Positions 1 to 49,370 of a stretch of 64,000 bases of DNA are shown in pieces. The stretch comes from Coptis chinensis (lineage: Eukaryota; Streptophyta; Magnoliopsida; Ranunculales; Ranunculaceae), in the NCBI GenBank assembly GCA_015680905.1, contig CM027381.1:13555501-13619500 (forward strand). The letters run 5' to 3'. The translations under genes and the position numbers were made by a program. The notes beneath the pieces are model-generated. The model worked only from the letters and a program-made list of their open reading frames with translations, did not search any database and was not told the DNA's origin. Each line of letters starts with the position of its first letter. The first letter of the stretch is position 1.

Positions 1-1480
1 TCAAGGATTAGTAGATGCAGTTGTTGTTGGTGACACGAGGCCTGGTACTGTAGGCAAACGGTTAGTTCTTCCTTCATCTTTCACAGGTGGTCCGCGGTAC
101 ATGGTACAGAACTATCAAGATGCCATTGCAATATGCAGGCACACAGGTTCCCCAGATCTCTTCATTACTTTTACATGCAACCCTAAATGGCCAGAAATCC
201 AGAGATGTATTGACATGATAGCTCCTGGTTATAAACCAGAAGACTTTCCCGATATTGTTGCAAGAGTTTTTGAGATGAAATTGCACGAACTGATGACTGA
301 TTTACAAAAGCGCAAGAAATTTGGGAAGGCTTGGGCAGGTAACCTATATACTATACTGTTTTAATTAATTTAAAAATTCATAATATTTTATGAAAATATT
401 AATAAATACGTGTTTTGTTAATGTTTTGCAGCATTATACACTATTGAATTCCAAAAGAGAGGTTTACCGCACGCTCACATTTTACTTTTTCTGGACAACG
501 CTTCGAAGCCTACTACTCCTTCACTAATCAACAAGCTCATATCAGCAGAGTTACCAGACCCAATTGGTGACAAAATTGCTTATGATTCAGTGCTAGAATT
601 CATGATACATGGGCCATGCGGAATAGAAAACTTAGATTCCCCTTGCATGAATGAGAAAAAGTGTACTAAGTTCTATCCAAGACCGTTTAGTGAAGAAACA
701 ACCATTGACGACAATGACTTCGCAGTTCTGAGGCGAAATAACAATCGAAAGGGAATGAAGAAGAATATAGAAGTTGATAACAGATGGGTTGTTCCACACA
801 ATGTTGATTTGATAGTTAAGTACCAAGCTCATATTAATGTGGAACACTGCAACAAGGGAAGATCAATCAAATACCTTTTCAAATACATTAACAAGGGAAG
901 GGACAGGGCTACTGCAATTATTGTTGAAAACATGGTTACAGACAAAGATAGTACTCATCAAATAGTAAAGGACGTTGATGAAGTTGCAAATTTCTTAGAC
1001 TGCCGATTCTTATCTGCTTCTGAAGCGGTTTGGAGACTATTGAAATTTGATATTCAGTACAGAAGACCTGGCGTTGAAAGGTTACCATTCCATCTTGAAG
1101 GTGAGCATTTGGTTTATTATAGTGAGAGAGATGATGCAAGAGATGTTGTAAACAGGAAATCTTCATCAAAAACCAAGTTTACAGAGTGGTTTAAAGCAAA
1201 TATTGAGTATCCAGAATTAGCTATGGGTCTTACGTATGTCGATTTTCCTACTCAATTCGTATGGGATAAGAAGGAAAGGAAGTGGAAACCAAGAAAAAAT
1301 GGGAAAAAAATTGGACGTGTCTACTACGCACATCCTACTTCGAGAGAGAGATTTTATCTCAAGGATTGTTGGTGAATATCGTCAAAGGTCCTTTGTCTTA
1401 TGAAGATATTAAAACTGTTAATGGAAAAGTTTATCCAACTTTCAAAGCAAGCATGTCGTATATTTTATTACATATTCCAT
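1..1480 (+). pseudogene. Helitron Rep (HUH endonuclease) exons, copy 1
   Basis: Encodes the replication-initiator part of the Helitron replicase, which nicks and joins single-stranded DNA during rolling-circle transposition. The first exon (to about 345) ends with KRKKFGKAWAG and contains FITFTCNPKWPEI, the Helitron-like N-terminal domain. A short intron (donor after GGGCAG, acceptor TTTTGCAG at about 431) leads to the second exon with GLPHAHILLFL (the HUH metal-binding histidines) and KYLFKYINKG (paired catalytic tyrosines). The open frame from 590 runs to 1375. The junction to the helicase intron at about 1448 differs from copy 2 (CATGTCG instead of CATGTCAGG), so the donor looks lost here. 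The 5' part of the gene is outside the window. Confidence 0.88.
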
Positions 1481-1489
1481 ATTAACTTT

Positions 1490-3050
1490 TTTTTTTTTTT
1501 ATATTGAATTAGATTGGATGGGACGATGTGGAATAAAATTAGGAGTTGTTCTCTGTCCAAGTCTGACATAATCAATATGTGTTGAGTAATTATAATCCAA
1601 CACACTAACATAAATAATTATCCCAAATAAACTTTAACATAACTATGTAAAGTGTGAACGTCTCGAATTCGAGCTCGAGTTTTAAACTGTGCTCAAACTT
1701 GACTCATTATTGAATGAGAGAGCTGTTGACGAGCCAAGTTCGAGTTACTCACTCACCCACGCCTCATAATAAATAGAATAGATGGAGATGGGCATGGCAT
1801 CCCAGACGGGAGACTAAAACCGAATCCGAGGTTGCTTCTCAGATTCCAACATTCAACTATAAAACTACCTTTGGATGTTTCTTTGGCATTTCATTAGTTA
1901 TCTGTAACGGCCATGAGCCCATGACGTTGTTGCTCCTACAGTCCTACTTTTTAGTATCAAGATATGTCGATTTGGCCGGATTGTGAATATAGGCAGACTA
2001 GGCACAAAAAAAGAATGCACTTCTAAGTTCTAACACCTCGATATTACTTTAAAATATAATCTATTCGTGAAAACGATTGTGAAAAATAAAATGAAAAAAA
2101 TCTTAGTAGTAATGTCCACGGGATTGTTATGAACTGCCAAAAATAACACCCAGAATGGAACATTATAGACACAAATACTTAATTGGGTGTTTACAGACAA
2201 CAACAGGGCTATTAGAAAAGCAGCCTCTAAATCTGATATATTTCTTTCTAATGAATATATAACAATTAAGTTACAAATGGACCTATCCTGCAGTCCATAA
2301 TATGTACTGTGGGGAGCTGATGGTTTTACTCCCCCTATCTCTGAACCTCTGCAATGAAGGCCTTTAGGAGATTCAACTTCCACTTGCCAAGTCCAAGTCC
2401 ACCGTACCGAGATGAACACTAATTTACTGGCAGTTTCTCTTGAATTTGCATCAGCTGAAATGGACCTCCTCCATAATGCTTAAGAGACTCAAATTTGGTG
2501 CACTTAGTGTACATTGTCCACCTCTATGCATATTACACAAGTTTGCTGCATATTATGCAAATTTTCAACTCCCAGCAACTAGGAACTGAGCAGATGGACA
2601 TTCGCACAAAAATGGTGGGAGATCAACATCTGATGGATCTGTTGCAGGAATGGCTTTTGATATATCTTCGGTAGAAAAGGGAATGCTGCAATAAAGAGAT
2701 GGAAGAGAATAGGATATATACTATGGTAGAAAATCTACAGAAGTAGTAAATGAGCTCAAGTAATCAATTTCACACGAAGTAAAACTACGCTTCAAATTAC
2801 TACAATATTTTGAAACAGCAATGACCAAGAGATCTTTCATTATGCATGCACTGTAAGCTCAAATATCTAAAAGGTAATAAGAAACTCCAGATCAAAAATA
2901 TTCAGGGTCCGACCTGATTCGCGGAAACCAATCCTGCAAAACAGTTATTCCAATTAAAAGGCCATTAAATGTAATAAATATTTGAATACATTAGAAGAAA
3001 AATAATAATAAGAAGATAATATTATATATAAAACAAAACCTTAGCTCATT
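1490..3050. other. Intron-resident insert in Helitron copy 1
   Basis: This sits between the Rep and helicase exons, where copy 2 has a quite different 1.1-kb sequence; the two copies become alignable again at about 3040 (42711 in copy 2). No recognisable protein. Around 1660-1750 there is GAGCTCGAG-rich sequence resembling the interior of the hAT MITE at 31934-32281. It probably holds one or more secondary insertions or captured pieces. Confidence 0.6.
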
Positions 3051-3122
3051 TATGATGGTTTACTATTAAAATGCAATTCATATTGTTACATTATTATTCT
3101 AATTTTTCATTTTTATATCAAG

Positions 3123-4989
3123 GCACATGGATTACTTGAGGACGACGGTGAATGGGATGACGCTTATGGAGGAAGCAAGTCATTATAAAGTTCCAAAATC
3201 TTTGAGACAATTGTTCGTCACATTGATTTTGTTTTGTGGGGTGACATATCCTGAAAAACTTTGGGAGAAACATCAAAAGCACCTCGGAGAAGATATTTTG
3301 TTTCGATATAGAAAGAAGAACAATAATGAGAATCTCACACTCATCAAGAACAGATTAGAAATGAGACTCTCTCGTGAGATTGAACAAATTATGGCTGAAA
3401 AGGATTATCTCTCACAAACATTCCCGATTTCCCAAATTTAATATGTCTTCAAGGATCTCCACAGATAATGATTGATTGTGAAGAATTAGATTACGAATGC
3501 AATGAGTTGCTAAAAAGAATATGAGATTCTTAACAACGGAATGAATGCTAATCAACGCCGTATTCAACTCTGTTAATGATGCAGATTCAATCTCAATCGA
3601 GGTGTTTTTTTCGCGGTAATGGATCGGAGGAACTGGCAAAACATATCTTTACAAAACAATTATATCTAAACTTCGGTCCGAAGGAAAGATTGTTCTTGCA
3701 GCGATGCGTCTTTCTGGGATAGTCAGGCGCCTACTTCCGTGTGGAAGGACTGCTCACTCTAGGTTTAAAATTGTTATTCGACCGATGAAAACACCAATTG
3801 TGACATCTCTCAAGGGACATTATTACACAACCTTATCGACGGGCTGATCTAATAGTGTGGGACGAAGCACCAATGACTCACGCACATGGATTTGAAGCAA
3901 GAAACCGCATTAATTGGAGGATCTTTTTAAATCACAAGGCAAAGAATTTGGTGGTAAAACATTCCTAATGGGAGGAGATTTCGCATGTGATATTACCACC
4001 ATTCCAAGAGGCACAAGAACTAATGTTGTTGATGCTTCTATCAACAAGTCAAAATTATGGAAAAACTCCAAAGTCTTTCACTTAACTGAGAACATGCGAC
4101 TGAAGAATGGAAATATAGAATCAGCTACAACAAAGTCTATTGAAGAGTTTAGCAAATGGGTTTTAGACCTTGGAGACGGAAATCTTCCTACTTCTAGAAT
4201 GAGTGACGAGGTGGAATCAACTTGGATCAAAATTCCAGAAGACCTGCTTATTCCGGATAGTGATAATCCAGTAGAAGATATTGTGTCATGCATATATCCG
4301 GATTTGGTCAACAAATATACAGATATTCAATATCTTAAAGAAAGAAGCATTCTAGCCCCGAGGAACGAAACAGTTGATGAAATTAACTCCACAATAATTT
4401 CAGAACTCCCAACAGAACTAAAGAAATACTTAAGTGCAGACTCACTAAGTCCAATTCAAGGTAAAAGTGCTGAACAAGATGTTTTATACCCGACAGAATT
4501 CTTAAACACTCTAGAATTTTCCGGCATACCGAACCACAAACTAGATTTAAAAGTTGGTGTTCCGATCATGTTAATGAGAAACCTTAATCAGAGTCGAGGA
4601 CTGTGCAATGGGACTAGGATGATCGTCACAAAATTGGCTTCCAAAGTGATATATGCAGATATCATTACAGGGAACAGAGTAGGAGATCCAGTTTTTATTC
4701 CAAGAATAATTTTGTCCCCAAGCGATACGAAATGGCCATTTGAATTCAGAAGGAAGCAATTCCATGTTAAAGTTTGTTTCGCTATGACCATAAACAAAAG
4801 CCAGGGACAAACATTCGAAAAAGTTGGAATATATTTGCCAAACGTTTTTCACTCATGGCCGCTTATATGTTGCAGTTTCAAGAACAAGCTCACGAGAGGG
4901 ATCAAGTTTTTAATCGAAGGAATGGGGACGAGCCCGAAGGACATACACAAAACATTGTCTATAAAGAAGTTTTCAATTCAATCTGAATA
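3123..4989 (+). pseudogene. Helitron PIF1-type helicase, copy 1
   Basis: SF1B DNA helicase half of the Helitron replicase, expected to unwind the donor strand. It starts after an acceptor-like TATATCAAG at about 3122 with HGLLEDDG, typical of Helitrons after the Rep domain. Walker A residues (GGTGKTYL) are recognisable at about 3625-3648 and Walker B (IVWDEAPMTH) at about 3852-3885, but these are in different frames. From 3914 a longer frame carries FLMGGDF (motif III), LTENMRL, LAPRNETVDEIN, VGVPIMLMRNL, GLCNGTRMIV and INKSQGQTFEKVG (motif VI). The usual C-terminus, HTQNIVYKEVFNSI, ends at 4986 in another frame. The gene is therefore nearly complete in content but interrupted by several indels. 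Confidence 0.87.
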
Positions 4990-5048
4990 TTATTACACTC
5001 AAAGGTATTTTCTTAAAACAAATGATTATTATATTTTTATATTTTAGA

Positions 5049-5640
5049 CAACGATTTTATTTTTTTTTTTACATTGTTTAATAGGAAAATCTCCTTTCAA
5101 CGGAATATAGGGAAAACAAATAGAGACAAGATGGCTATAAACAAAGACGTAGATCAAATCCTCCTTACTTCAACAGAATTGATTATCTCCTAAGTACTCA
5201 GAGTACTACGGACAAGAGGGAGATAATGTTAGCTACCTTAACGTTCCCTTCTACTCTGTCTTCTTCATGGTTCTATTAAATCATATTGTATGGAATCTTA
5301 TCTATTCTTAATTATTCTTTTAATGTTTGGAATTCTTCTTAACATGCAAACTTTATTAAGTACATTAATGTTCGGATTGTGTACTCATTCAACAATGCAG
5401 TGAGAAGACCATTTTGGAACCGAAGGTAATGATTCTAAACACTAGATGCTTCCAAACACCAAATTTTTTGTTTCTATGTCCCCGATTTTTCGGTGCTTTT
5501 AAGTTTGTTAGAGTATGTATAAAAAGACATATAGTGACATGCAAATAAATTGAGGTGACCAACATGATTACTTGGACGGGTTCGAGGGGCAGGTAGTGTT
5601 AGCGTAGATTTCACCGAAAGCAAAGAATCAGAATTCGCAC
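5049..5640. other. Helitron 3' flank, non-coding
   Basis: AT-rich sequence after the helicase stop. Probably includes the Helitron 3' terminus, but no clear hairpin plus CTRR could be placed by eye. No gene seen. Confidence 0.4.
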
Positions 5641-13164: not shown

Positions 13165-15400
13165 AATAATAATATGCATATGCAAAAAAACTCTGACCCT
13201 AGATATTGAGAACGCACCGGATGAAGAACAACGTGTTTTTACGACGAATGGCTTGGTCGATATTTTTGGCTTGGTTAATGAAAATGTCATCCAACCCGTG
13301 GCGGTTGGGCAAGAATTACGTATGGTGTCCCATCTCAGAACCGAGGGTTTTCAACCTTGGAGGAAACAACCTTACTTGGAACAACAATGCTAATGTAGCT
13401 CCAAAGTGCATGTTGTCTCAATTATCTTTGAGGTCATGTCGTCGAACCCGTTGATCTAAAGCGAGAATGAGCTCAATGGAAACTTCCATGAATGGCTTGT
13501 TGAACACAATATCTAAAACTATAATTCTATCTATCGGATAACAAGCTCAAAAACTTCTACGCCACCTCCTCCTCATTTTTTAGTCTCTCAAATTGTCGAA
13601 TTTACTTGCTTTGTCAAGAAATTATTTCTCCGCAAATTGTCTAGAAACATGGGAGATACAACTTCCGTCATGATACTTATGTTATCAAACAACAACTTTT
13701 TAGGTACCATTCCTAAAGGCGATCTCAAAAATTTATCGACTACTATTGTTGGGACTTCGTCGCAATAAACCTCCTCAACATCGGTTTCTAAACGATAAAA
13801 ATTATGCGTGTCTTAACAATTACAATGTCGGACAAAACATCTCAATAAATAATAATATGCATATGCAAAAAACTTCTGATGGCTAGATATTGAGAGCTAT
13901 TTGGATGAAGAACTACGTGTTTTTACGACGAATGGCTTGACTTCGATATTTTTGGATTGGTTATTGAAAATGTCATCCAACCTTTGTGGCGGTTGGGCAA
14001 GAATTACGTTTGGTGTCCCATCCGCAAACGAAGAGAGTGGAGTAGATCATCATCTTATTTATTGCCCTCGCTAGAAACTTGAGTTCACTAGAGTTGAAGA
14101 GGTGCAACCTACACTCGGTCGTCTTATGAAAGACGTCTCTTCCAACAGATTTGTCGATGAGTTTCCATAAACTTTGCATTAGAAACAAAGATACTTGCAT
14201 TAGGTCAAAATGAGTTTTCAGCTCCCTAACCTCAAAATCTTAGCAGCCGAGCTTAAACTTCGAGCACCTCGATCTCCATAACAACAATATAATCGAGAAT
14301 AGCTAGAAATCCTCTACCAAATGTCTAGCCTTCAAGTTCTTAATCTTAAAATAATTCTCTTGAAGCCCGAATCACAAAGACGCCAAGGTAAAACCATATA
14401 CAAGGGTTCGAGCATCAATAGGCGAAGGAAGAGTTGATTCCTTCCATGGGAGAGCACCCATTGTTAGCGATTCTCTCATGAGAGGTCTCGGGACGAGAAT
14501 CCACACCTAAAGTTTTATCTTCCTTATGGTTGGATTTACAATGGATCACTGGAATGACGAAGTTATCAATTTAATCTAGAGCTCGGGCACCTCGATCTCC
14601 ATAACAACAATATAATCGGAGAATAGCTAGAGATCCTCTACCAAATGTCTAACCTTCAAGTTCTTAATCTTAAAATAATTCTCTTTGAGCCCGAATCACA
14701 AAGACGCCAAGGTGGAACCATATACAAGGGTCGAGCATCAATAGGAGCCGAAGCAAAGAGTTCATTCCTTCCATGGGAGAGCACCCATTGTTTCCAGATT
14801 CTCTGCGAGAGGTCTCGTGACGTAATCCACACCTAAAGTTTTATCTTCCTTATGGTTGGATTTACAATGGGGCAACTGGAATGACGAAGTTATCAATTTA
14901 ATCTATAATACTTTTTAGGTACCATTCCTAAGGCGATCTCAAAAATTTATCAACTACTATTGTTAGACCTGTCGCATGAAAACAAATTTTATGGTAACAC
15001 ATTCCCAAGCTTTGGTCCGGATGCTTTACTTGCTTATGGAGACGCGTCTCTTCCAACAGATTGTCTCGATGAGGTTCCATAAACTTTGCATTAGGAACAA
15101 AGATACTTGCATTAGGTCAAAATGAGTTTTTAGCTCCTTACCTCAGAATCTTAGTGCTGAGTTTTAACTTCGAAAGCACCTCGATCTCCATAACAACAAT
15201 ATAATGGGAGAATAGCGAGTTCCTCTACCAAATGTCTAACCTTCAAGTTCTTAATCTAAAAAATAATTCTCTTGAAGGCCCGGATCCTAAAGACGCCAAG
15301 GTGGAACCATATACAAGGGTCGAGCATCAATAGATGCGGGGAGGACAATGCATCAAGCCGAATGGTAATGGCTGCCTTCCAAGAAGAGGAGGCCAAGTGT
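13165..15400 (+). pseudogene. LRR receptor-like protein fragments, shuffled
   Basis: Decayed leucine-rich-repeat coding sequence of the plant receptor-like protein kind (extracellular pattern recognition or development). Visible LRR shards include FNLGGNNLT (about 13350-13375), CMLSQLSLRSC (about 13407-13440), LMLSNNNFLGTIPK (about 13677-13718), NLSSLELKRCNLHS (about 14080-14120) and MSNLQVLNLK (14645 onward). No signal peptide, transmembrane segment or kinase domain is visible. The same shards recur out of order: the segment with ACCTCGATCTCCATAACAAC appears at about 14258, 14590 and 15179; GGTACCATTCCTAA appears at 13702 and 14918; and 13165-13340 is duplicated at 13845-14035. No frame is long enough to be functional. 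Confidence 0.7.
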
Positions 15401-15795
15401 CCTGAAGTTTAAAAACACCCGAAGAGCACCTAGAGTTTGATTGTTCTAGCAAATCTGTACAAGTTTAAATTGTTGTTAACTCACTTAGATTTGCACTAAA
15501 CACGGGCCAAACTTGGATTGGTCCGCCATTTACCATACTAAAATTAATTCTATTTTTATACTTATCCGATTCTAATTTAGAGAAGTATTCCTTAATTCAA
15601 CTTCTACCTACGGGGGTTTCAAATTTTGATAAGTATTGCCTAATTAAACTTATACATACGGTACAACTCCAAAGCAGGTACACTTCTAAAACTAGAACAA
15701 CACCTTTGGAACTTATAAATACAACACAACCGATTAATATAATTTAGAGAAAACTATAGAGCTACTCTGGAGAAAAGGTACACATGACAATAATT

Positions 15796-16412
15796 TCTTT
15801 TTCAATCTTATTAGATTTTTTAATAGTATTAGTAAACTGTTGTTATTTTAATCCATGAACTCAGCATAAATAATACATCTATCCATGCATACATAGCAAA
15901 ATGGTTGTATATTCATCATAATTGTGATAACAATTGTAATTCTAATAGCTAGATATCTTTATAGAAGAACATTATGATTTGGAAAATTCAATTTTTTGAT
16001 TCTTTTTCAATCTTATTAGATTTTTTAATAGTATTAGTAAACGGTTGTTATTTTAATCCATGAACAAAGATAAATAATACATCCGTCCATGCATACATAG
16101 CAAAAAGCGGTTGTATATTCATCATAATTGGGATAACAATTGTAATTCTAATAATTTGGATATCTTGTAATAGAACATTATATTTGGAAAATTCAATTTT
16201 TTCGATTCTTTTTCAATTTTATTAGATTTTTTAATAGTATTAGTAAAAATTTGTTATTTTAATCCATGAACTCAAAGATAAATAATATATCTGTCCATGC
16301 ATACATAGCAAAGCGGTTGTATATTCATCATAATTGTGATAACAATTGTAATTCTAATAATTTGGATATAATGTGAAGAACATTACATTATGACTGAAAA
16401 TTCAATTTTTCG
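15796..16412. repeat. Tandem repeat, three copies of about 206 bp
   Basis: The marker TCTTTTTCAA begins at 15796, 16001 and 16207, giving units of 205 and 206 bp. Each unit contains TTTTTTAATAGTATTAGTAA, CCATGCATACATAGCAAA, GGTTGTATATTCATCATAAT and ends near AAAATTCAATTTTT. The three copies differ by scattered substitutions and short indels. The array lies directly upstream of the RPA-like gene and has no coding capacity. Confidence 0.9.
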
Positions 16413-16439
16413 ATGAGGTAAATGACAAATCGACAGGTT

Positions 16440-18388
16440 GAAAGGTTCGAGCACGCATAAGCGAGAATGTGGGAAGCTGTTAATCTACTGAGGACAAGAC
16501 ACAATCATATGGTCTACACATGTCGCTACTTTGAAAAAAAGGTAGAAACGGACTCAAAAATTACTTCTTTTAGATCAAAATAATTTTTGAATTTTAATCC
16601 ACTTATATTACATCAGGCAAATCGAATCAAATTCATGCAAAGATTTCACCCGGGGAATCCAACACATGTTTGAAAAGAAACTGATAGAAGGAGACATATT
16701 TGTAATTGATAAATTTGAAGTCAAAGAAACAACCGGAAGATATCGTCCAGTAAGATCTAAGTACACTATTTCTTTCACAAAAGATACTATAGTATCTCTT
16801 TCGAAAGAAATTGGGACGACATTCAACAGATATAATTTTTCGTTCGTAGAATTTGAAGATCTTATGAAAACAAAGGATATCTCAGTTTTTCATACCAAAG
16901 GTGAGTTCTTTATACATACCATATTGTTTATTATAACTAATTTCTAACAATGTCTACAAATCAGATTTCATAGGAAAACTTATCAGAGTCGGGCCAAAGA
17001 AACCTCAAGGATTTAGTGGAAATCACAATACAAAGCGAAAGGTAAACAAAATCTACATAAATTAGTTTTAACTTAATTTCTTACCGCGACTAACTATGTA
17101 AATCGAATCGGGGAAGTGAGCTTACTATAGCCTTATGGGGTGACAACTCCGATGGTAGCAAATATCGGTAATCAAGAAGAAGATATGATGCTCATCATCA
17201 CATCATTATACTTGAAAATGATTGGAAGTAAGTACAATTCTTAATCATCAGTTATATAGACTCAAGTTAAACATATATAATGGAAGTAAGTACAAATCTA
17301 ATGTTTTGAATTTTCATATTTTCTGAGAGGAATACAAACTTTGTTTAACATCTGCGACAAAGTTGTACTTGAATTTGGAACATTTTGGCCACGTCGACCG
17401 GATGAGAAACAAGGTGATATTCGTTAACAAAAGCATTACTATTCCTCACAAAAGCATTAACAAATATGACTTATCCCTAATTTGTTTTTCGTAGATATCA
17501 AATAAGAAATACAAGAGTTCAAATTGAACAAGTAGTGACAGACGAGCCTACTTCAATGAAGGAACTAATGAATCAAGACAGAGTCTCAATTTCGGAGCTA
17601 ATTTCACTAGGAAAAGAAACACACAATCAGGTATACCAAGTAAATGTCTAAATAATACCGTGATAAAATTAATAAAAACTGAACTAATAAACATATTTTT
17701 TGCTGGGAAAGCAATTCACTTGCAGGGCAAAGTTTGTGAAGATATTTGGAAACCAGTGGAGCTACAAATCATGCGAGAACTGCACTTATAAGCATGTTGA
17801 CAAAGGATCGGAACCTTTTTGCACTAATTGTGAAACAACATACAAGACTCCACAAGGCAGGGGTAAAGGAATCACTAATAAATACTACATCTTGGTTTTA
17901 TAATTCATTACTAATTCCAACTTTAAAACATCAACAGGTACCTACTTAAACTATGCGCACAAGATGAGAGGGGAGATCAAAGCGACTTTTTGTCGTCTTT
18001 TTGGTAAAAAAGGCGAGAAAATAGTCGAGTTTCCTATCCAAAAATAATGGAGCTGACTTCGGAGGCAAGTACATGACTAAATCTAAAAAAATTATTTTAT
18101 AGAATGATACAAAGTTCGTAATTGAACCGTACCTACATTTATTTTGTCAAAAAGCAGGGAAAAACTACTGAAGAAATTAAAGAAAAGCTTGAAAAGAATG
18201 CGGGGAAGGAGTATATTTTCAAAGTTAAGCTGAATGAGTATAGTATAAAAGAAAAGTTCCCTTCATTCAGCGTTACGGATATATTAGAAGACGATGAAGA
18301 CTCTGTTGAAGAAAATCGTCTATCAAAAAAACCCCGTAAAGATTCAGAAACAGAGGAAAATGAATACAACAAAGAGATCAAAGGATGA
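16440..18388 (+). pseudogene. RPA70-like single-strand DNA-binding protein, Helitron-associated type
   Basis: Replication protein A large-subunit relative; such proteins coat single-stranded DNA, and plant Helitrons frequently carry RPA-like genes. Segments in order: an N-terminal piece with RISRMWEAVN (about 16452), an OB-fold exon to about 16902 (KISPGE, then EGDIFVIDKFEV, YRPVRSKYTISFT), an exon with DFIGKLIRVGPKK (about 16966-17040), one with LTIALWGDN (about 17122), one with NICDKVVLEFGTFWP (about 17345), one with SISELISLGKET (about 17590), and the zinc-ribbon exon 17714-17867 (SCENCTY and FCTNCE, two CxxC pairs). The C-terminal OB exon (about 17939-18060) has frame damage here. 18122-18388 encodes an acidic/basic tail ending at a stop. 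GT-AG borders separate most segments. Unlikely to be functional. Confidence 0.78.
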
Positions 18389-18769
18389 AAAATATCTCCT
18401 TAGGATGGAAGATTACTAGGAATTCTATTACGATTTATTCATATTTCATCAACAACATCTGTACTTTGAGATACATTAATGATGTTTAAGTTTTAAACTA
18501 TTTGAGGTATTTAGTAGTGTCTTTGGATTAATTTTACTTTAATTCATTAATTCAATCTGAAATTTCGAAGTTCAATTTGAAATCTTTATGATAATTTATT
18601 TGTCCAAGTTTGTGTACACAAGTCCTACATCTTGCAATTGTTTGCATGCTATGAAGTTGTGTCATGGGAAATTCTTAACATGATTTTCTAGAAAAGGTTC
18701 CAATAAAGTTTCATTTGTTACTTTTGTGTTGCATTAAGGATTCATTAACGGTGACCATTTTGGTACCTC
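18389..18769. other. AT-rich spacer
   Basis: Follows the RPA-like stop; looks like 3' untranslated or intergenic DNA. No gene seen. Confidence 0.5.
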
Positions 18770-32290: not shown

Positions 32291-33171
32291 AGAAGAAAGT
32301 CACAAGTTTATCTCAGGATCGTAGTTTTACAGTTTCATCCTTAAATTAATAGCACTTGTAGTATTTAGTCATAGTTTTTGCATCTTGCAGTGTCCAAACC
32401 TAGCAGGCCTTTGTCTTTCCAGAAAACAGAACGAGCCATTGCCGCAGTCAGAGCATTTACTTCTGAAAATCCCTGTTGCACTGTTACTATGCAACGGTCA
32501 TATGTGGTTAAGTGGTTTGTTCTGGTGAGATCTTCACGCTTTATAGTATTCTGATCAAGTTTCACTATGCGTTCTTGTTATAGGGCTTATGTTGAGCTCA
32601 ATCAATAAATATTTCTTCTTATACATTATAAAAATGGGATAACGTGTCTTCGTTAAAATTTTGTGTAAAATATGATGTATTTCTTTCTTCCTATTTTTGC
32701 AGAAGCTACCAATTGGCTTTGCCAAAACATATATGGAAAAAGACGCTCATGACGTCATGCTCTGCGTTCCAGATGGGAGAACGTGGCAGGCTCAATGCAC
32801 TTCTGGAGAGGGTCAGGCTAGGCTAGTCAGGGGATGGAAGGCATTTGTTTTTGATAATCACTTGGATTAGTCTGGACACGTGGACACTCTAGCTGTGCTT
32901 CCTCAATTGAAGAGGGGAAAACTAATTACGATAGGGAGTGCTAAAAAAAATTAATCTACTTTTTTGTGCCCGAATCTAACCTCAAACTCTAAAAAAAACT
33001 GGGCGATAGATATCTGGAAAAACCCACGATTCAATTTCACGCCATCCACTCCGAAAACCCCAAACTCTATAACCTTGAACTTTGGCTATTTGTTGATTAT
33101 CCAATTCTCCAGCATCTCGACCAAAATCAAGGCTATGGAGTTTATCTGAACACTTAGAATTAATAGCAGTC

Positions 33172-33639
33172 CCTAGCCTATGTCACCCCGAGGTTTTGGT
33201 AGGAAATTATTCCGAGAAGGTGGATGTGTGGAGTGTTGGTGTTCTACTTCATGCCCTCTTAGTTGGGTCCCTACCATTTCAAGGAGATTCATTAGAAGCA
33301 GTTTTTGAGGCAATTAAGAAGGTGGATTTAAGCTTTAATGGTGGGATGTGGGAATATGTGTCTGAACTTGCCCGGGATCTGATTGGGAGAATGCTGACAA
33401 GGGATGTCTCCTTGAGTGTAACTGCAGACGAAGTACTAACCCAAAAAAAACAAGGTTTGCTTTACTTCGTTTTATTTTATACGGTATATTTATTTATTTT
33501 ATTTTTCAAAAAAAAATCAGGACATCCATGGATTTCATTTTACACGGAGCAGGCTTTGAAGAGATCATTGATCAAGTCAAAAGGCAATAACTTGCTGTAC
33601 GATCTAGCCCAATCCAACAAGATTGTTCCTCGACTGTGA
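33172..33639 (+). pseudogene. PEPKR2-like Ser/Thr kinase fragment, C-terminal lobe
   Basis: Matches the end of a plant Ser/Thr kinase related to calcium-dependent and PEP-carboxylase-kinase-related kinases; the sequence agrees best, from memory, with PEPKR2. It begins inside the APE motif (HPEVLVGNYSEKVDVWSVGV), continues through LPFQGDSLEAVFEAIKKV and LARDLIGRMLTRDVS, and after an intron (about 33453-33523, GTTTGC...AATCAG) resumes with GHPWISFYTEQALK. The catalytic lobes before the activation segment are absent. The sequence just upstream looks one base out of frame. Because an intron is present, this is a genomic fragment and not a processed copy. Confidence 0.72.
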
Positions 33640-36120
33640 AAGCAAACAACCTCTGTACATCATTTTGATTCTTCTATGTTAACAGCTGACACCACCCGCA
33701 GACATTTACAACTCTTAAATCTCCAGTGCAATGAAAGATGACTGACGGCGTCCACGTATGGAAATTTTAAGTATCCAAGTGTTTTCATGTTTACTGCTTT
33801 CATAGTTTGAAGTTTAGTCTTTTGGTTTAAGCAACCACGCATGACAGTATGATTTGGTAGTGATTCACTCTACAAGAATAAAATTGAAATCCTAACAAGG
33901 ATGAACCATGCAAGTACAAGCTCCTGTACGGGGCTAATACTCCAGAGAAGGCACAATAAAATTAAAACAGAACTGTATGTTCATTGACGAGTGCCTTTTC
34001 ATGTGTCGTGATAGTGTACGCAGTCAACAATGAAGCTGCAAACAAACTCTTGAGTCTTGATGCAGCATAATAGGATTTGTGCATATTACCATTTGTTCAA
34101 AGAATCTTGATACAACAAATCCTGTATATATAACTTTCTATGAGAATACATGTGTACACTCTTTCGATGCTTACATTTCATTTCACCTCACAATTTCCAT
34201 GCATAAAGAGAGATACACAAATACAAATCCTAAACAGAGGAGCTGTCAACCAAGCAAGATGGACCATCGACTTTCGGTTTCCCAACCATTTCTTATAACA
34301 AGGTAATTCTCGAGAAAACATATGGTTGCACACAAGATGCCTCGGTCATGCAATTAAAAAAAGCGTATTCGATGCGAAATTTGGACTCTTGAGGCTCCTC
34401 TAGCACTTAATGCAATAACCGAGCCTTTCATGAAGAAATTATGTAATAAATAAACAATCCGAACTTCTCGGAGCATGAGTATTAGCTATAATGACCAGTT
34501 TGATCTTTTGCAGGAAGAACTTTCATGCTCACAGAGTCGCATTTAGTAGCTGTTCTTCGGCTTAAGGAACTTATAAGTTCACTTTCAGTGGATGTGGTTC
34601 CAGTGGAGGAACTATTATGTTCATTTTCAATAGTTTAGCTTTCGCTAAAAAAATTATTTTGATCATTTATAGTTGTGGTTTCGGTGAAAAGACATTTCAG
34701 TTCACTTCCAGTGTAGGCACTACCAGACACCTTAACTAGCAGTTCATCCTCATCCTGAAAAACCAACTTCCAGTGTAGGCACTGCCAGTCTTCTCATTCA
34801 ATAGTTGTTAAAATGCCTTGAAAGGTAACCGTATATAGGGTTTTGTTAGTGCAAGTAATGATTCTGTAAATATGTTATTTGAGTCATTGCTCTACAGAGG
34901 ATTGTTTTGTCCATTTTGCTATGTTATAGATTAGTTATAGATTAGTAAAGGTCCTAAGGTGAATGGAGGCACACTTGAAGGTATAGAATTGGGATAGGGA
35001 TAGATCGGTGGTGCATTTTGTAGGAGTTGATGGCAATGCAAAGCCCGGGAACGGCGATGGAAGTGGTAGACACGGGCGTAAGAAGTAAGCATTTGTCTTT
35101 GACAATGGAAAATATTGTTAATTTTCTAACATTTTTAATGCAATGATTGAAGTCCGATTCAGTCAAATTATGGTTATAAAATCTTTGTTGAGTTTGTTTT
35201 TTGACTTTTCGACTTACATTTTGGAGTACATATGCGGACACGCTTAGCAACAGCTGCTGCGCAATCGGATGCACCAACATACCCTGATCTTGATCCGGGA
35301 GAACTCTGGCACGAATGCATCCATTGACTGCTGCAGTCATGCATTCAAAAATAATGAACATGTGATCTTCTTTTTCAGAAAATAATGGGTAAAAAAGTTT
35401 AGACTGATATTGATATTGATTTACATTCATGTTTTCAAGTCTATTATGTTCTCAGTGAACTGGGTCCATGTCATATGCCATCCTAACCCTGTTGAAGATT
35501 TGTGGTTGCAGGTATTAGAAGAAAAATGGAGGTAAAACCAACGGTTGCTCGAGGGCTATATTTGCAGGTGGATTAGTCAGTATTTGCCAAAGTGGATGGT
35601 GCAATGAAATTTTTTGTTGGTAGCGTTAAGGTGGGTACAAAGAAGCGGTTGTTATGGCTTCCGCGGCAGTTTTCGAGATCAAAACAGAACAAAATGAAGC
35701 TTCCAAGAAGCCTTCGCAATAACTTATCACAATTGCTCCAAATTGTTTTTGTAGAAGGATTTAGTGCAAGGGTGGATTTCACCACTCGACTGGAAATTGT
35801 ATCTTTTTGGTTGAATTGTATGAGTATAATCACATGGAAATGAAGGCAAGTGTCATTTTTTTCATGTCTGCCGCACTAACAAGATGCTTGATCACAATAT
35901 TACAAACTTTTGTTAATATAACTATTGCAAATAAGTGGTTGATGCGGTTCGTATATAAATGCCTTAAACTTGAGTGTATTAATGTCCTACTTTTCTGCTA
36001 TTATGTAGTGTCTTAATAAGTCAAAAGTTCGTATAACAATAACACATCGAATGTCCTAGCACAACAGAAACACCGAAGGAACATCCAGAAAATGCAAGCA
36101 GCAATTCAGAAAATGCACAA
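33640..36120. other. No recognised gene
   Basis: AT-rich. Short unassigned frames: minus 34954-35430 (includes AAVNGCIRARVLPDQDQG) and plus 35592-35843 (KKRLLWLPRQFSRSKQNK). Neither shows a family motif. A short repeat, ACTTCCAGTGTAGGCACT, occurs at about 34706 and 34769. Confidence 0.35.
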
Positions 36121-36129
36121 CTTATTCCG

Positions 36130-36235
36130 TGAGTTATTGGATATGGATGGATTAGTTAATTGATATGTATTAGTTATTGGATATGGATATGGATTAGTTA
36201 ATAGATATGGATACGAATTAGTTAATAGATCAACA
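36130..36235. repeat. GGATAT satellite, small outlying copy
   Basis: Contains TTAGTTAATTGATATGTATT, GTTATTGGATATGGATATGG and TTAGTTAATAGATATGG, the same units as the array at 62590-63920, some 26 kb away. Confidence 0.8.
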
Positions 36236-37917
36236 ACAGAATTCTTATGCTATACAACTGCTGTCATATTAAAATCTATATAAAGACATCAATATTCATG
36301 AAGCATTCAACAAAAACCTATTGAAACCATACGCCAATATACAAAAAAAAAATCCTAAGAAAACACATCAATATTCACGAAGCACACACCATCATCCTTC
36401 TACTATAGGTTCATTTTTTTTTCCTGGACTGAAGGTTTTTCCCTGGTACACCATCTTTGAAAGGACTCCAAATTCTTTCCACTGAAGGTTAGTATTTTTT
36501 TACTCTTAGTACATATTTTTTGGTACATAAGAAATACAAACACACTTAATCAAAGTTACTTTTGCAAGGGTAAAGTAGAATATTCATGTAGCAATTCAAA
36601 TTGAAAGAACACCCTCCTGGCATCTCAGTTCTCAGCTTCTTCAACCTCTACAAAATTCAAACGCTGAAAAGCCTCAATTCCAAGACGACATCGGAGACCT
36701 TTGGGTATCGCATTACTAGCTAAGACGCACTTGAACAGCAGATCTAACCTCTTCCCCAAGACCATTCACCGATAGAACTTTCTCTTCTTAATTGCCTTCC
36801 TACAGCTCTGATTGACCCCCGTGGGGTGGGTTCCTTTGCTTCCCTTTTTATCGTAAAAAAGAACCTTAATATTGAGAAAGCTAAGTCTCTGTATCCTATT
36901 AAAGTAACAGCATCAATTTTTGCACAATTCCCTCTATTGTGACTGATTCACCTAACGCCATAGCTAATATCACAGCTCCAATCATAGCAGCCTAACGCCA
37001 TCGTTTCGAAGTCTTTTGCTTAAGCCGCAACAGATCAATCAAATACCTCGGTTCGGTAAAGCGTGTCTATTTATTACTTGGTCGTGTATTCCGGAATGGA
37101 CACATTGAAAACCTTCTTCTCCTAGCTTGCACCCGTCTTCCTTTCCGACTTGCGCAGGACGCCTCTGTCTCTCACAGACTCAGACTTGAGCTCACCTCTC
37201 ACTCTCTCACTCTTTGACGCACAACTGACTCTTTTCTCACTCACTCAAAACCAAGTTACTATTGCAAAGGCAAAAGAAAAACACAACTCTTTTATTAGAA
37301 CAATTTCTCCACTCTAAACACTCATACTCTAATACAAGGAGGAAACACTAAAATCTCTTCTTCTAAACAAATTAGACACCAACTGCAATAACTTTATACT
37401 CCCGGTGGAGTTGGCAGTCACAACCGTGTTTGACTTCCCTCTCCAACAAACACTTGACAATTTCACCTGAGAAGAAAATAGGTGTTAGACTCCAATTCTT
37501 CTCTTTCAGATCAATATTTATAATTTGAACGGGGTTATTAGCTTTAGTGATAAAAAGTAAATGTATGCGATGATGCACTTCTGTAACCAATAGCTCAGAT
37601 GCCTATTGATCCAAAAGTGACATGGTCCGACTTTGTGGAGGCCATCCAGTCTGACATATTTTTCCAACCATCTAGTGAATAGCATGCATCAAACCCTTAT
37701 TGATGCTCTATAGCTGTAAAACTACAACATTTCTCATCCACCTGAAGTGTCCAGATTTAACCCAGAAAGCTTAGCTATGAAATGGTAACTTGCTAGCACC
37801 GGTATAGTCAAAACCTTCATGCAATAAGAACGTGAAACAAGCAACTTAAATCAGTAATCCATGTTAAAAATAAAGACAAACTCCAAAACAAGAAAGAAAA
37901 AGATCTTGATAACATAC
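36236..37917. other. No recognised gene
   Basis: Mixed non-coding sequence, pyrimidine-rich around 36600-37370. A minus-strand frame at 37372-37590 has no recognisable motif. The 3' exons of the transporter piece at 37918-38003 were not found here. Confidence 0.35.
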
Positions 37918-38003
37918 TGCTGCAATGCGAGCAACTATGATAGGACCAAGAATTCTTTCAAGTCTTGGATATAGAAGAGTTTGAGAGATTAGAAGTCCAA
38001 CAC
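37918..38003 (-). pseudogene. Major-facilitator transporter exon fragment
   Basis: One minus-strand exon bounded by an acceptor (TTATTAG/GTG) and a donor (GCAGCA/GTATGT). It reads VGLLISQTLLYPRLERILGP then IIVARIAA, a segment like the mid-portion of plant MFS carriers (zinc-induced-facilitator-like or related). Only this exon is seen, in opposite orientation to the Helitron that starts about 100 bp further on. Probably a captured or stranded exon. Confidence 0.5.
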
Positions 38004-38110
38004 CTAATAATAGATAAATTAGTAAGTAACACTACCACGTGCACAAGAAATATCACTAAATTCACATATTTGTTTGATTCTCTACTTTAACTGACTCCTT
38101 TTCTTTCCAG

Positions 38111-38473
38111 GCTTCCAAAGAGATTTACATTCTACATGATTTAGGTTGACGAGAATTTATCCGCCAGAAAAGTGATGGACACCAACAACAATCCAACTTG
38201 AAAAACTGCATCAAGTATTTGATCAATTCAATGGAAGTCCAAATAAAGAGATAATTAACAATTTGAAGTTTGAACTAAATCAACACGGTAATGTTTGAAA
38301 AAAAAACATAGTTACTTGGTTTCGCAACATGCGTGCTAAGTTGAAAAGAAAAACACTCATTAACGCAGAGAAAGATTCGGATGAAATTCAAGTAGAGATT
38401 CAAATTTCTCCAAAAAAGACCAAGCCTAATAATATGGAAGAAACTTCTGGTGACATTGTTCCTTCACAAGAAA
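38111..38473 (+). pseudogene. WOX13-like homeodomain exon of the Helitron replicase
   Basis: A 363-nt exon between acceptor CTTTCCAG (38110) and donor AAA/GTAGG (38474). Codons 38173-38355 give a 61-position homeodomain with no gaps against the WOX13-type homeodomain as I remember it: WTPTTIQLEKLHQVFDQF, then NGSPNKE, ELNQHGNV and NIVTWFRNMRAKLKRK. Shared key positions include WTPT, FDQ, GxP, QHG and the recognition-helix WF.N.RAK.KRK; by eye about 28 of 61 agree. Three in-frame TGA codons occur (38137, 38173 at the expected Arg before WTP, 38296 before the third helix); at least the second is explainable as CGA to TGA at a methylated CpG. Entry and exit are both phase 1. Alternative: an independent WOX pseudogene lying by chance next to the Helitron. 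Confidence 0.75.
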
Positions 38474-38547
38474 GTAGGTCTTAACTTACAATGATTCTGA
38501 CAAGTACTTTATATATTCATCATACTAATATTACTCTTAAATTACAG

Positions 38548-39868
38548 GTCAGCATCAAGTATCAGTTAGAAAAATAACAACTACAAAGTCTACCCCAGTC
38601 AAAAGAAAACAGAGGAGGAAAACACAGAATAGAAGTTATAAATCTAATCGTCTTAGTAGAATGAAACGTTTTGGTAAATATTTTCTTCTTATCTATTCAA
38701 TTTATTATTCTTATAGCATCAAATAATTTATTAAATGACATATTATTATTTTTTAAACAGTATCTATGCCCGGAACAAGTGAAGAAGAAGCTAAAATAAA
38801 TAGAGCTAAACGAAAAGAGATGCTGAATTTGAAGAGCATTGGAAACGATAATTACATTGACGATAGAAGTGATGATGATTACCTATCACAAATGAGTGGA
38901 TCAGATTCCGACATTAAAGTGGACAATGAAATTGAAGTTTCCATTTCATGTGGAATAGATGTCTCACATAAAAGTAATTTTCTTACAGCAATGTTTTATA
39001 TTCTTATTATAATTAAATTCTTTAATTTTTATTAACTTTTTGCCTTGCAGGAAGTTGTTTTGAGCCTTTGGATTTTGGATGTCCAACATCCATATGTTCT
39101 CATTGTGGAGCTATTGTCTGGTACGAAGAAAGGAATGATAGGAGAAAAAAACCTATTAATCCTAAATTCTCCATATGTTGTCAGAATGGAAAGGTTCAAT
39201 TGCCTCTTCTAAAAGATACTCCAGAATTTTTGAAGAATCTTTTGGATTGCAATGGAGGGTCAAAATCATTAAATTACATGGAAAACATCAACATTTACAA
39301 CTCAATGTTAGATTCACATCTTGGTGGACAAGTTTGAGCCCAGTTAATGATGGAAAGGCACCCTTTGTTTATAAAAAAAAAAGGGCAAAATCACCACAAA
39401 ATTGGAACATTGCTTCCACCTGAAGGAGTACGTCCAAGGTTTGCACAGTTGTACATACATGATACTGAAAATGAAGTCACCCACAGGTTGAACTCTCTTA
39501 GTAAAAAAATTGTTAAGAGGAATCCAAAATATGCTTTAGATTCTAGCATTGTTCAAGGATTGATAAATATGTTGAATGTTACCAACGAACTCACCAAGAC
39601 TTATAGAATGGCAAGAGATAGATTTAAAGAATGTCATGTGGCCGACGTCAGCATACAATTGATTAATAGAAGACAAAAAGATGGAAGACTTTATAATTTG
39701 CCATCATCAAAAGAGATAGCTGGTCTAATCGTTGGCAATGGTGATGAATTTAACGAAAGCCTGAGATGTTATTATTGTGGACAAGAAAGGATTTGGCTTG
39801 AAGAGAATCAACGAATTGCTTCCAAGTTTCATGGCAATGCAGTATCCACTTTTGTTCCCCCATGCTGA
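38548..39868 (+). pseudogene. Helitron replicase N-terminal exons, copy 2
   Basis: Exon 38548-38673 (KRKQRRKTQNRSYKSNRL, basic), intron, exon 38761-38973 (EEEAKINRAKRKEML, then an Asp-rich stretch), intron, exon from 39051. Introns 38474-38547, 38674-38760 and 38974-39050 are all phase 1 and keep one frame. The last exon holds the zinc-finger CSHCGAIVWYEER and CCQNGKVQLP, then LLPPEGVRPRFAQLYIHDTE, SSIVQGLINMLN and ELTKTYRMARDRFKE, all hallmark Helitron replicase sequence. A frame change near 39337-39350 and further damage after 39868 (the expected YPLLFP region is out of frame) show decay. Copy 1 lacks this region because the window begins later. Confidence 0.85.
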
Positions 39869-41560
39869 AGATGGATATAGACTTGACATTCCATATAGAA
39901 ACAATGCAGTAGTTGGAAAAGAAAAAATATTAGCATGAGAGAATACTATGCTTTTAGATTACAACTTCGACGCCTTAATGAAGGCGGACTATAGTTAGGT
40001 GGGAAAAATTGAGACAGCAACTTTGTGTAGATGCTTATACAGCTGTTGAACAAAATAGAATGGATTGGGTTCGAAATAATCAACAAACGATTCGGGCAGA
40101 ATTGTATCAAGGATTAGTAGATGTAGTTGTTGTTGGTGACACGAGGCCTGGTACTGTAGGCAAACGGTTAGTTCTTCCTTCATCTTTCACAGGTGGTCCG
40201 CGGTGTACATAACTATCAAGATGCCATTGCAATATGCAGGCACACAGGTTCCCCAGATCTCTTCATTACTTTTACATGCAATCCTAAATGGCCAGAAATC
40301 CAGAGATGTATTGACATGATAGCTTCTGGTTATAAACCAGAAGACTTTCCCGATATTGTTGCAAGAGTTTTTGAGATGAAATTGCACAAACTGATGACTG
40401 ATTTACAAAAGCGCAAGAAATTTGGGAAGGCTTGGGCAGGTAACCTATATACTATACTATTTTAAATAATTTAAAAATTCGTAATACTTTATGAAAATAT
40501 TAATAAATACGGGTTTTGTTAATGTTTTGCAGCATTATACACTATTGAATTCCAAAAGAGAGGTTTACCACACGCTCACATTTTACTTTTTCTGGACAAT
40601 GCTTCGAAGCCTACTACTCCTTCACTAATCAACAAGCTCATATCAGCAAAGTTACCTGACCCAATTGGTGACAAAATTGCCTATGATTCAGTGCTAGAAT
40701 TCATGATACATGGGCCATGTGGAATAGAAAACTTAGATTCCCCTTGCATGAATGAGAAAAAGTGTACTAAGTTCTATCCAAGACCGTTTAGTGAAGAAAC
40801 AACTATTGATGACAATGACTTCACAGTTTACAGGAGGCGAAATAACAATCGAAAGAGAATGAAAAAGAATATAGAAATTGATAACAGTTGGGTTGTTCCA
40901 CACAATGTTGATTTGATAGTTAAGTACCAAGCTCATATTAATGTGGAACACTGCAACAAGGGAAGATCAATCAAATACCTTTTCAAATACATTAACAAGG
41001 GAAGGGACAGGGCTACTGCAATTATTGTTGAAAACATGGTTACAGACAAAGATAGTACTCATCAAATAGTAAAGGACGTTGATGAAGTTGCAAATTTCTT
41101 AGACTGCCGATTCTTATCTGCTTCTGAAGCGGTTTGGAGACTATTGAAATTTGATATTCAGTACAGAAGACCAGGCATTGAAAGATTACCATTCCATCTT
41201 GAAGGTGAGCATTTGGTTTATTATAGTGAGAGAGATGATGCAAGAGATGTAGTAAATAGGAAATCTTCATCAAAAACCAAGTTCACAGAGTGGTTTAAAG
41301 CAAATGTTGAGTATCCAGAATTAGCTAGGGGTCTTACGTATGTTGATTTTCCTATTAAATTTGTATGGGATAAGAAGGAAAGGAAGTGGAAGCCAAGAAA
41401 AAATGGGAAGAAAATTGGACGTGTCTACTACGCACATCCTACTTCAGGAGAGAGATTTTATCTGCACATCAGAATGAATATCGTCAAAGGTCCTTTGTCT
41501 TATGAAGATATTAAAACTGTTAATGGAAAAGTTTATCCAACTTTCAGAGCAGCATGTCAG
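39869..41560 (+). pseudogene. Helitron Rep (HUH) exons, copy 2
   Basis: Continues the replicase: HAEDGYRLDIPYRNNAVVGK (about 39860-39920), AYTAVEQNRMDWVRNNQQT (40030), VVVGDTRPGTVGKRLVLPSS, DLFITFTCNPKWPE (40250), the intron at about 40440-40532, HUH histidines PHAH (40571-40579) and KYLFKYINKG (about 40973-41002). The frame 40691 to about 41561 is open and ends at an intact donor, CATGTCAG/GTATAT, before the long intron. A small deletion near 40203 (GGTGTACATAACT versus GGTACATGGTACAGAACT in copy 1) disturbs the frame upstream. Otherwise near-identical to copy 1. Confidence 0.87.
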
Positions 41561-41589
41561 GTATATTTTATTACATATTCCATATTAAT

Positions 41590-42710
41590 TTTTTTTTTAT
41601 ATTGTTTTCTTGCCTAAAATTTGTCGCATATAGTTTTAGAAGTTCAAACTGATTCATATGTACTGATTCAAAACCTCTCCAATCTATGCTCATGTTTTAA
41701 AAACCAGCACACAACTCCCACACAACATTTTGTTACTGGCTTTCAAGAGCCTGTTTGGCTACGCATTTTTGGAATTTCAAATATAAGTGAAGTCATAACA
41801 GAAAACCGGGGTGACGAGTATTTTTATTGCTTTACAAGAAGCACTTGCTCTAATGTTTCAGCAGTTTATTGTAGACATTTGTTTCTGTGACCATAGTGGT
41901 GTTTGTATAATAGAAGCGTGACTTCAGGGTTCAGGATCTTATCTTTTTGTAGGACAGACCAAACTATCGCTATTCTAGACGGCAAGATGAGTTAAGAAAA
42001 CTGTGTGGCAGAACCAGTGTAATAAAGAAAACTAAAGAGCTAACCTTAAAGAGGTACGAGGAGAGAAAGATTTCTTAAAATCAGTGAGAGTCCAAGAAAG
42101 TTAGCACACTAGAGAGAGAAGGATTAAAATAGAAGGATTCAAAATTCAAATTCAAAAACTTGGGGGAGAAAAGAAGCTGCTTTTGGCCAAAGGAGAGCCC
42201 TGGGGGTTGGATGTTTTGAACTTAGATATTGATGAGGGCATGTCGCATGAGGCACTAGATAAAGTGCCCACTGACTCAAAAAAACAAAAAGCGCAGAATT
42301 TTAATAATATTTCTTCACGCAAATTTTGTTAATTAGTTATAGATTAGGATACCAAACAACCTTGCCATTATTTCTATCTCAAGCTTGCTACTACGAAGAT
42401 CTTCTGCAGTGACCAATCTCTCCTTAGCTATAGACTTACATGCCAAAACATCTCCAGTCAACTTAAGATATGCTGAATCTAACATTCTAATATATGCTGA
42501 AAATCAAGGAGTCTGCTGAATGTATTACTGAAATTAAGATAAGGGGAGAGTTTACACGTTACTTGGTAATGTACACCTGCATAGTAAAAGTACACGGTTG
42601 GTTGTGAACTAATATATATGTATCCTCATTATCGAGAATTCATTTAGATGTAAAAACATTTAATCAGAAAAAGATATTGAAACAAAAAAAAAATAGTACG
42701 TATTAATCAT
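41590..42710. other. Intron-resident insert in Helitron copy 2
   Basis: Occupies the same intron as 1490-3050 in copy 1 but shares no obvious sequence with it. An 89-residue plus-strand frame (41621-41890) contains TGFQEPVWLRIFGISNISEV; not recognised. The remainder is AT-rich. Confidence 0.55.
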
Positions 42711-42798
42711 AAAACCTCAGCTCATTTATGATCGTTTACTATTAAAATGCAATTCATATTGTTACATTATTATTCTAATTTTTCATTTTTATATCAAG

Positions 42799-43258
42799 GA
42801 ACATGGATTACTTGAAGATGACAGCAAATGGGATGACGCTATGGAGGAAGCAAGTCATTGGCAAGTTCTAAAATCTTTAAGACAATTGTTCGTCACATTG
42901 ATTTTGTTTTGTGGGGTGACATATCCTGAAAAACTTTGGGAGAAACATCAAAAGCACCTCGGAGAAGATATTTTGTTTCGATATAGAAAGAAGAACAATA
43001 ATGAGAATCTCCAACTTACTGAAGAACATATTAGAAATGAGACTCTCTGTGAGATTGAACAGATTATGGCTGAAAAAGGATTATCTCTCACAAACATTCC
43101 TGATTTCCCGAAATTTAATATGTCTTCAAGGATCTCCACAGATAACAGATTGATTGTTGAAGAATTAGACTATGACTGCAATGAGTTGCAAAAAGAATAT
43201 GAGATTCTTAACAACGGAATGAACGCTAATCAACGTGAGGTATTCAACTCTGTTAATG
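42799..43258 (+). pseudogene. Helitron helicase N-terminal part, copy 2
   Basis: After the acceptor TATATCAAG the frame reads EHGLLEDDSKWDDAMEEASH, SLRQLFVTLILFCGVTYPE, ISTDNRLIVEELDYDCNE and NGMNANQREVFNSVND. This is the conserved stretch before Walker A in Helitron helicases and parallels 3123-3580 of copy 1 with fewer breaks. Homology ends at VND; the following KKRT and stop are foreign sequence. The break marks either a truncation of the Helitron or a later insertion. Confidence 0.85.
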
Positions 43259-43403
43259 ATAAGAAGAGGACATAAATTTCAAAGAAAGTGACAAACTAAG
43301 ACATATTTATAACTGTACTCAAGTTACTAGACATCTTAGGTATCGAAAATAAGATGAATTGATATCAGTACAAGAACAAACAGATAAGGGATAAGCCTTG
43401 AGG

Positions 43404-49215: not shown

Positions 49216-49370
49216 ACCTCGAAATATAGTTGTATTATATATAGGGAGAATATAATATCTCGACAAGTATAGTTTTGCATTTTAAGTAATGCTTATTATA
49301 ATTATTTTATTATGATTGAGAATGTCTTGCTATTTAAGTAGCTTCAATATCATCTTCGCCACATTGAGCA
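49216..49370. repeat. Block Y, copy 1
   Basis: GAGAATATAATATCTCGACA, AGTATAGTTTTGCATTTTAA, TTTAAGTAGCTTCAATATCA. Diverged match at about 59645-59790 (CGAGTATAGTTTTGCAATTA, TTCAAGTAGTTTCAATACGA). In both places it directly follows minisatellite units, so X-minisatellite-Y seems to be one repeat family. Confidence 0.65.

Follow-up and report, generated by a model that had tools for sequence, protein, structure and literature searches.

A WOX13-type homeodomain exon joined to the RepHel of Helitrons in Coptis chinensis

What is a host-type homeodomain doing at the head of a transposon replicase? The question is raised by a stretch of 64,000 nucleotides of Coptis chinensis (C5:13555501-13619500 in an assembly of 935,630,033 bases; hereafter the window), in which a homeodomain of the WOX13 kind lies upstream of the N-terminal exon of a Helitron. 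Little is understood of how Helitrons choose and recognize DNA, and the majority of host fragments that they carry look like passengers. On balance, the window copy is taken here to be a decayed member of a set of plant Helitrons that bear an RPA-like gene and have a WOX13-type homeodomain at the start of RepHel.

The Helitron copy with the homeodomain spans positions 38111-43260 of the window and is decayed; it and all features given for it below are on the plus strand. An alignment of 21 copies places the first exon of the N-terminal extension at 38136..38473, decayed in the window. Within this exon, the WOX13-like homeodomain (WTPT...KLKRK, about 38176..38352) was matched by Pfam PF00046 with an E-value of 2.6e-7 when a stop codon was written as X. 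The homeodomain of another copy (L014) was matched by the same model at 2.3e-11; both matches are above the cut-off. The best solved structures for the domain are WUSCHEL (6ry3) and STENOFOLIA (6wig). An earlier, sequence-only reading of this locus had proposed a WOX13-like homeodomain upstream of the Helitron exons on the same strand, a proposal borne out by the Pfam match. It had also drawn three phase-1 introns with GT-AG borders, and these hold: intron 1 (38474..38547) leads to exon 2, a basic linker (38548..38673), intron 2 (38674..38760) to exon 3, an acidic linker (DDDYLSQMSGSDSD; 38761..38973), and intron 3 (38974..39050) to the N-terminal exon of RepHel (CSHCGAIVWYEER; 39051..39868). 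This last exon is zinc-finger-like by reading and has a stop near 39336. Further downstream lie the Rep (HUH-type) part (RGLPHAHIL; 40523..41560), matched by the Pfam model Helitron_like_N at 1.7e-5, which is under the curated cut-off, and the start of the helicase part (42711..43260), the remaining helicase being unmatched in the window copy. The stretch from 33829 to 38110 is common to other copies, with gaps, and is assigned to the 5' region of the element.

The continuous frame that had been claimed from the homeodomain into the Helitron fared less well, for its splice junctions hold but the window copy is dead, its stops and an indel having been overlooked. Translation probably begins at the ATG at position 38136 (many copies read MISVDENLSSRKRWTPT there), outside the 61 positions that had been given as the extent of the domain. 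A TAG (38142-38144) is the third codon after this ATG, a TGA (38173-38175) stands directly 5' of WTPT, and an in-frame TGA (38296-38298) interrupts the homeodomain. Among the 21 aligned copies (window included), the equivalents of these two TGA codons read CGA in 17 and TCA in 17, respectively. With these stops in its reading frames and one base inserted between the ATG and WTPT, the window copy cannot be functional.

To which class of element does this copy belong? The features of the class were read from pieces of other copies. Joined pieces of copy L013 were matched by Helitron_like_N at 1.5e-53 and contain an HUH-like LPHAH, a piece of L014 downstream of Rep was matched as PIF1 helicase at 7.1e-88, and joined exons of L009 downstream of RepHel were matched by DUF223 at 1.5e-15. 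DUF223 marks the RPA-like proteins that many plant Helitrons encode. An HUH Rep domain, a PIF1-type helicase downstream of it, and an RPA-like gene were thus all found, a set described as the outfit of RPA-bearing plant Helitrons (PMC4683698, PMC6431247). A second copy of the same family, with Rep and helicase, lies at 1..5110 of the window (plus strand), and its region at 15340..18711 (plus strand) matches the RPA-like gene that follows RepHel in copies L009 and L033. The homeodomain match of this second copy falls just beyond the window edge (C5:13553508-13553777), as does its Helitron exon (C5:13554454-13554819).

Helitrons begin with 5'-TC, end with CTRR-3' preceded by a subterminal hairpin, and insert between A and T. 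Such ends were sought on both sides of the element and were not found in the retrieved stretches, the shared sequence continuing beyond them or breaking off differently from copy to copy. A 5' terminus at 38131 (TCTACATG) was tried and dropped because homology extends upstream of it in most copies.

Is the joined unit peculiar to the window? Of the 180 candidates in a DNA search of the assembly with positions 38111-39200, a search that the earlier reading had suggested, 40 were scored: the window and 39 other places (88-97% identical). In all of them, the match starts no later than query base 20 and covers the homeodomain exon. Twenty of these 39 were retrieved and aligned with the window to give the 21 copies, referred to as group A, and the homeodomain exon is present in 20/20. 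Many of the 20 carry an ATG at the position corresponding to 38136, followed by a reading like MISVDENLSSRKRWTPTTIQLEKLHQVFDQFNGSPNKEIINNLKAELNQHGNVSEKNIVTWFRNMRAKLKRK. In three of the 21 copies (L014, L018, and L021), the frame stays open from this ATG to beyond CSHCGAIVWYEER by way of three phase-1 introns, and the CSHCGA motif of the Helitron's fourth exon lies within their open frames. In L014, the exons before the last intron measure 337, 126, and 213 nt, so that all three introns are in phase 1, and the frame is open over the whole stretch read. L018 has M in place of the last R of CSHCGAIVWYEER and a stop later in the fourth exon; L021 has a frame shift later in that exon. In group A, phase-1 introns therefore join the homeodomain to the Helitron N-terminal exon.

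The column-majority frame of the 21-copy alignment contains no stop over 936 nt. Over the first 219 coding bases, 7/21 copies contain neither a stop nor an indel; one of the seven (L027) is out of the ATG frame in the alignment. Much of the frame loss among the 21 copies is caused by a run of A within the homeodomain. Changes were scored against the commonest base per column, with expectations taken from the change spectrum of the same sites; the p values of the four tests are given without correction. Changes private to one copy comprise 167 amino-acid or stop changes and 41 silent ones (n = 208; 1.15 times expectation, p = 0.50), and those common to at least two copies comprise 50 and 28 (n = 78; ratio 0.5, p = 0.006). 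Private changes thus look neutral, and shared ones look poor in amino-acid changes, as would be expected if the source copies coded; those source copies therefore seem to have coded through the junction. For the homeodomain alone, private changes number 42 to 4 (p = 0.03, toward amino-acid change) and shared ones 13 to 6 (p = 0.28), the latter too few to reveal constraint. Taken alone, the data within group A thus do not show constraint on the homeodomain itself.

The domain extends beyond group A. A search of the genome with Arabidopsis WOX13 gave 145 matches (144 of 221 candidates were scored), which fall into 124 loci; two of the matches are the homeodomain exons of the host's own WOX13 genes. 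At 14 non-host loci, several matches lie within 3 kb on one strand, eight loci having two and six having three, one of the 14 including a partial match. This tandem arrangement does not figure in the earlier reading. Three loci outside group A were retrieved (L038, L039, and L040), and the Helitron exon is present in 3/3. L040 (group X) has a single homeodomain followed by CFQPLDFGEPTSVCPYCDAIVWYEERND. L038, the one copy that represents group Y here, has a homeodomain that lacks the tryptophan (WF is read as RF), followed by CFEPLDIGCPTSICFHCGAIVWYEERND; its first junction is in phase 1, and the frame is lost at the guessed second exon. In L039 (group Z), three homeodomains stand in tandem (235-1617) before CFQLLDFGEPTSVCPYYDAIVWYEERND. 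Homeodomain exons 1 and 2 join in frame there, as do the third homeodomain exon, the linker, and the Helitron exon; these in-frame joins exclude that from second to third, the second exon running into a stop if extended to a later donor. By eye, the acidic linker of exon 3 in group A resembles the linkers of two other homeodomain groups, and A and Z share a similar acidic linker as well as the same phase-1 junction. Two further diverged groups (Y and X/Z) thus have the same exon preceded by a homeodomain and, at some loci, by a tandem of two or three. Further loci with three homeodomain matches lie at C2:50257637, C5:80110734, C5:87490130, C9:8092832, and C9:17313401.

How closely is the homeodomain tied to these Helitrons? 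The Helitron exon was used as a protein query against the genome (150 scored of 1,331 candidates) and compared with 142 homeodomain matches, the host pair included and three that matched only the WOX13 N-terminus dropped. An exon was counted as linked when a homeodomain match lay no more than 4 kb upstream on the same strand. Among the scored exons, a linked homeodomain was found for 63/93 at 67% identity or above and for 0/57 below (57-66%). By identity, the linked exons are 19/34 at 92-100%, 21/27 at 80-91%, and 23/32 at 67-79%; in the last bin, one homeodomain lies upstream of 16 exons, two upstream of 4, and three upstream of 3. Conversely, 73 of the 142 homeodomain matches have a linked exon downstream, and no pair in the wrong order or strand occurs within 4 kb. 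No homeodomain match accompanies 30 of the 93 related exons, a number that falls to 19 once the DNA-search matches in the top bin are added. With these, the top bin rises to 30/34, so the search itself accounts for part of the misses. The break near 67% identity points to a clade of Helitrons with the homeodomain next to others that lack it, although a strongly diverged homeodomain could have escaped detection in the latter.

Where did the domain come from? The Helitron homeodomains are 42-52% identical to three WOX13 proteins, compared with 27-35% to WUS/STF. They group with WOX13 in a tree with a starred split from WUS/STF, the sole non-WOX13 types compared. Like the domain of the WOX13 clade, to which it is about half identical and closer than to WUS/STF, the Helitron homeodomain lies within one exon. 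It differs in being flanked by linker and RepHel, and in position 50, which is R or K in 5/6 Helitron homeodomains and I in the sixth, versus Q in the five WOX comparators. The Helitron reading begins 6-13 residues before the homeodomain tryptophan and then continues into linker and RepHel, with the other regions of WOX13 absent; it is therefore not a WOX13 gene. In each of the host's two WOX13 genes, the homeodomain lies in one unbroken open frame; their identity is 50-52% with the group A homeodomain and 84% with each other. A close host WOX gene together with family members lacking the exon, the case named beforehand as speaking against uptake, was not what the genome showed. Rather, uptake into the transposon is upheld by the 40 scored places and by related Helitron groups with the same order.

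Long residence in the transposon, which had been suggested from divergence, agrees with the synonymous distances between groups A and Y (dS 0.70 for the homeodomain and 0.63 for the Helitron exon). Their similarity indicates that the two parts were inherited together, and groups A and Y appear, from these distances, to have had the homeodomain since before their split. A single uptake of a host WOX13 homeodomain exon by a Helitron before the groups separated is, in our judgment, probable.

Could the homeodomain nevertheless be a passenger, carried and perhaps translated at the N-terminus of RepHel and useless to the transposon? Amino-acid change has been about ten times faster in the homeodomain than in the Helitron exon, and homeodomain dN/dS between groups is 0.60-0.72 (A/X, Y/X, and A/Y), near relaxed. 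The A/Y value of 0.72 would suit a passenger, as would the lack of constraint in the homeodomain-only tests within group A. However, the X and Z homeodomains compared with each other give 0.19-0.39, the exon keeps the same position in three groups with similar linkers, and over such an age a useless insert should have been lost or have acquired stops. Nor would a passenger readily account for the 14 non-host loci with tandem matches or the 7 Helitron exons with two or three homeodomains upstream. We regard a passenger as unlikely, though it deserves serious weight.

Several independent captures of a WOX13 homeodomain by separate Helitron groups would fit the low identity between the three groups' homeodomains (30-44%), which are as far from one another as from WOX13 or further. 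With its long branches, a tree built from domains of 60 residues does not settle the number of captures. Yet separate events would have to reproduce the similar acidic linker and same phase-1 junction of A and Z, the similar change at position 50, and the sharp boundary near 67% identity, as well as dS values between A and Y that are alike for homeodomain and body. This account is improbable.

It has also to be asked whether the exon serves the host, spliced into neighbouring host transcripts as part of a transcription factor. An acceptor-like AG precedes the homeodomain exon in most of the 21 group A copies, and public gene models (P0001, P0004, and P0007) fuse the exon to varied upstream exons. 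The models look automatic, however, and their upstream part differs in each. Host use is very improbable. In a database, P0001 and P0004 bear the name homeobox protein. Five copies (L015, L016, L017, L020, and L026), which form one supported clade, differ from most other copies in their upstream sequence, and the same acceptor-like AG follows both sequences. Finally, a chance neighbourhood, in which a fresh host WOX pseudogene lies beside an unrelated Helitron, would suit the in-frame stops of the window copy but is ruled out by the joined unit at 39 other scored places, the same order in other groups with no wrongly ordered or oriented pair within 4 kb, the divergence from WOX13, and the linkage.

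The reading of a homeodomain-headed RepHel allows a mechanism to be sketched. A Helitron would have taken up one host WOX13 homeodomain exon, once, ahead of the group split, giving a RepHel predicted to run from one to three homeodomains through a basic and an acidic linker to the zinc-finger-like exon, Rep, and helicase. The homeodomain could then have anchored RepHel on double-stranded DNA beside the zinc-finger-like region. Its sites would most likely be the element's own DNA or promoter, with chosen targets as the alternative, and its binding specificity would have moved away from that of WOX13 as position 50 went from Q to R or K. That the domain is a sequence-specific double-stranded-DNA anchor, tethering the replicase to particular sites, is a real possibility to which we give slightly less than an even chance. 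More tentative still is the wider proposal that a Helitron clade gained the domain once, kept it at the head of the replicase over tens of millions of years, shifted its specificity (Q50 to K/R, with rapid amino-acid change), and multiplied it into two or three tandem copies as a targeting or self-regulation module. If this is true, the element would have encoded a replication-type transposase with a homeodomain as its steering arm.

Similarities and differences to known systems are instructive. Plant RepHel + RPA Helitrons share with the Coptis elements the HUH Rep, the PIF1-type helicase, the downstream RPA-like DUF223 gene, and a multi-exon RepHel, but differ in having no N-terminal WOX13-type homeodomain (one to three) with an acidic linker before the zinc-finger-like exon. 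Extra Helitron domains are exemplified by RPA, an OTU-like protease, and an AP endonuclease, with no homeodomain among the examples (PMC6431247). In the bat Helitron Helraiser, the N-terminal region before the nuclease has been described as required for DNA binding (PMC4778049). The Coptis homeodomain likewise lies before the nuclease, its part in DNA binding being predicted. No report of a Helitron-homeodomain fusion was found among the full-text literature matches listed, a coverage that leaves out most subscription papers. The two papers found to mention Helitron together with WOX13 do no more than count transposons in the neighbourhood of WOX genes (PMC5501002, PMC6482515). Protein searches, run with group A sequences only and requiring shared 5-letter words and similar length, matched Coptis proteins or nothing, which is weak evidence that relatives are absent beyond Coptis.

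In several related Helitron groups, the replicase seems to have gained a domain from a host transcription factor as a durable, in-frame part, which shows a way in which new transposon proteins could arise through gene capture. Helitrons of this genome in which no homeodomain was detected provide a natural control, so that it can be tested directly whether the captured domain changes targeting, regulation, or copy number.

Several minor features of the region deserve mention. Diverged arrays of a unit of about 55 bases lie near Helitron pieces at 47964-49220, 52286-53064, and also 22734-23277 of the window. TAATTA occurs 13 times in the first of these (1.5 expected) and 8 times in the second (0.8 expected). 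This enrichment was set aside as evidence because an array multiplies one unit and the array may lie outside the core element. Arrays of a 115-base unit lie upstream of two group A copies (L029, 6437-7681; L030, 4934-9985). Fragments of a B3 DNA-binding domain and a protein kinase are found upstream of the Helitron copy in the window (31353-31949 and 33097-33639). Long open frames on the minus strand at 55738-59024 read like the endonuclease and reverse transcriptase of what we take to be a LINE.
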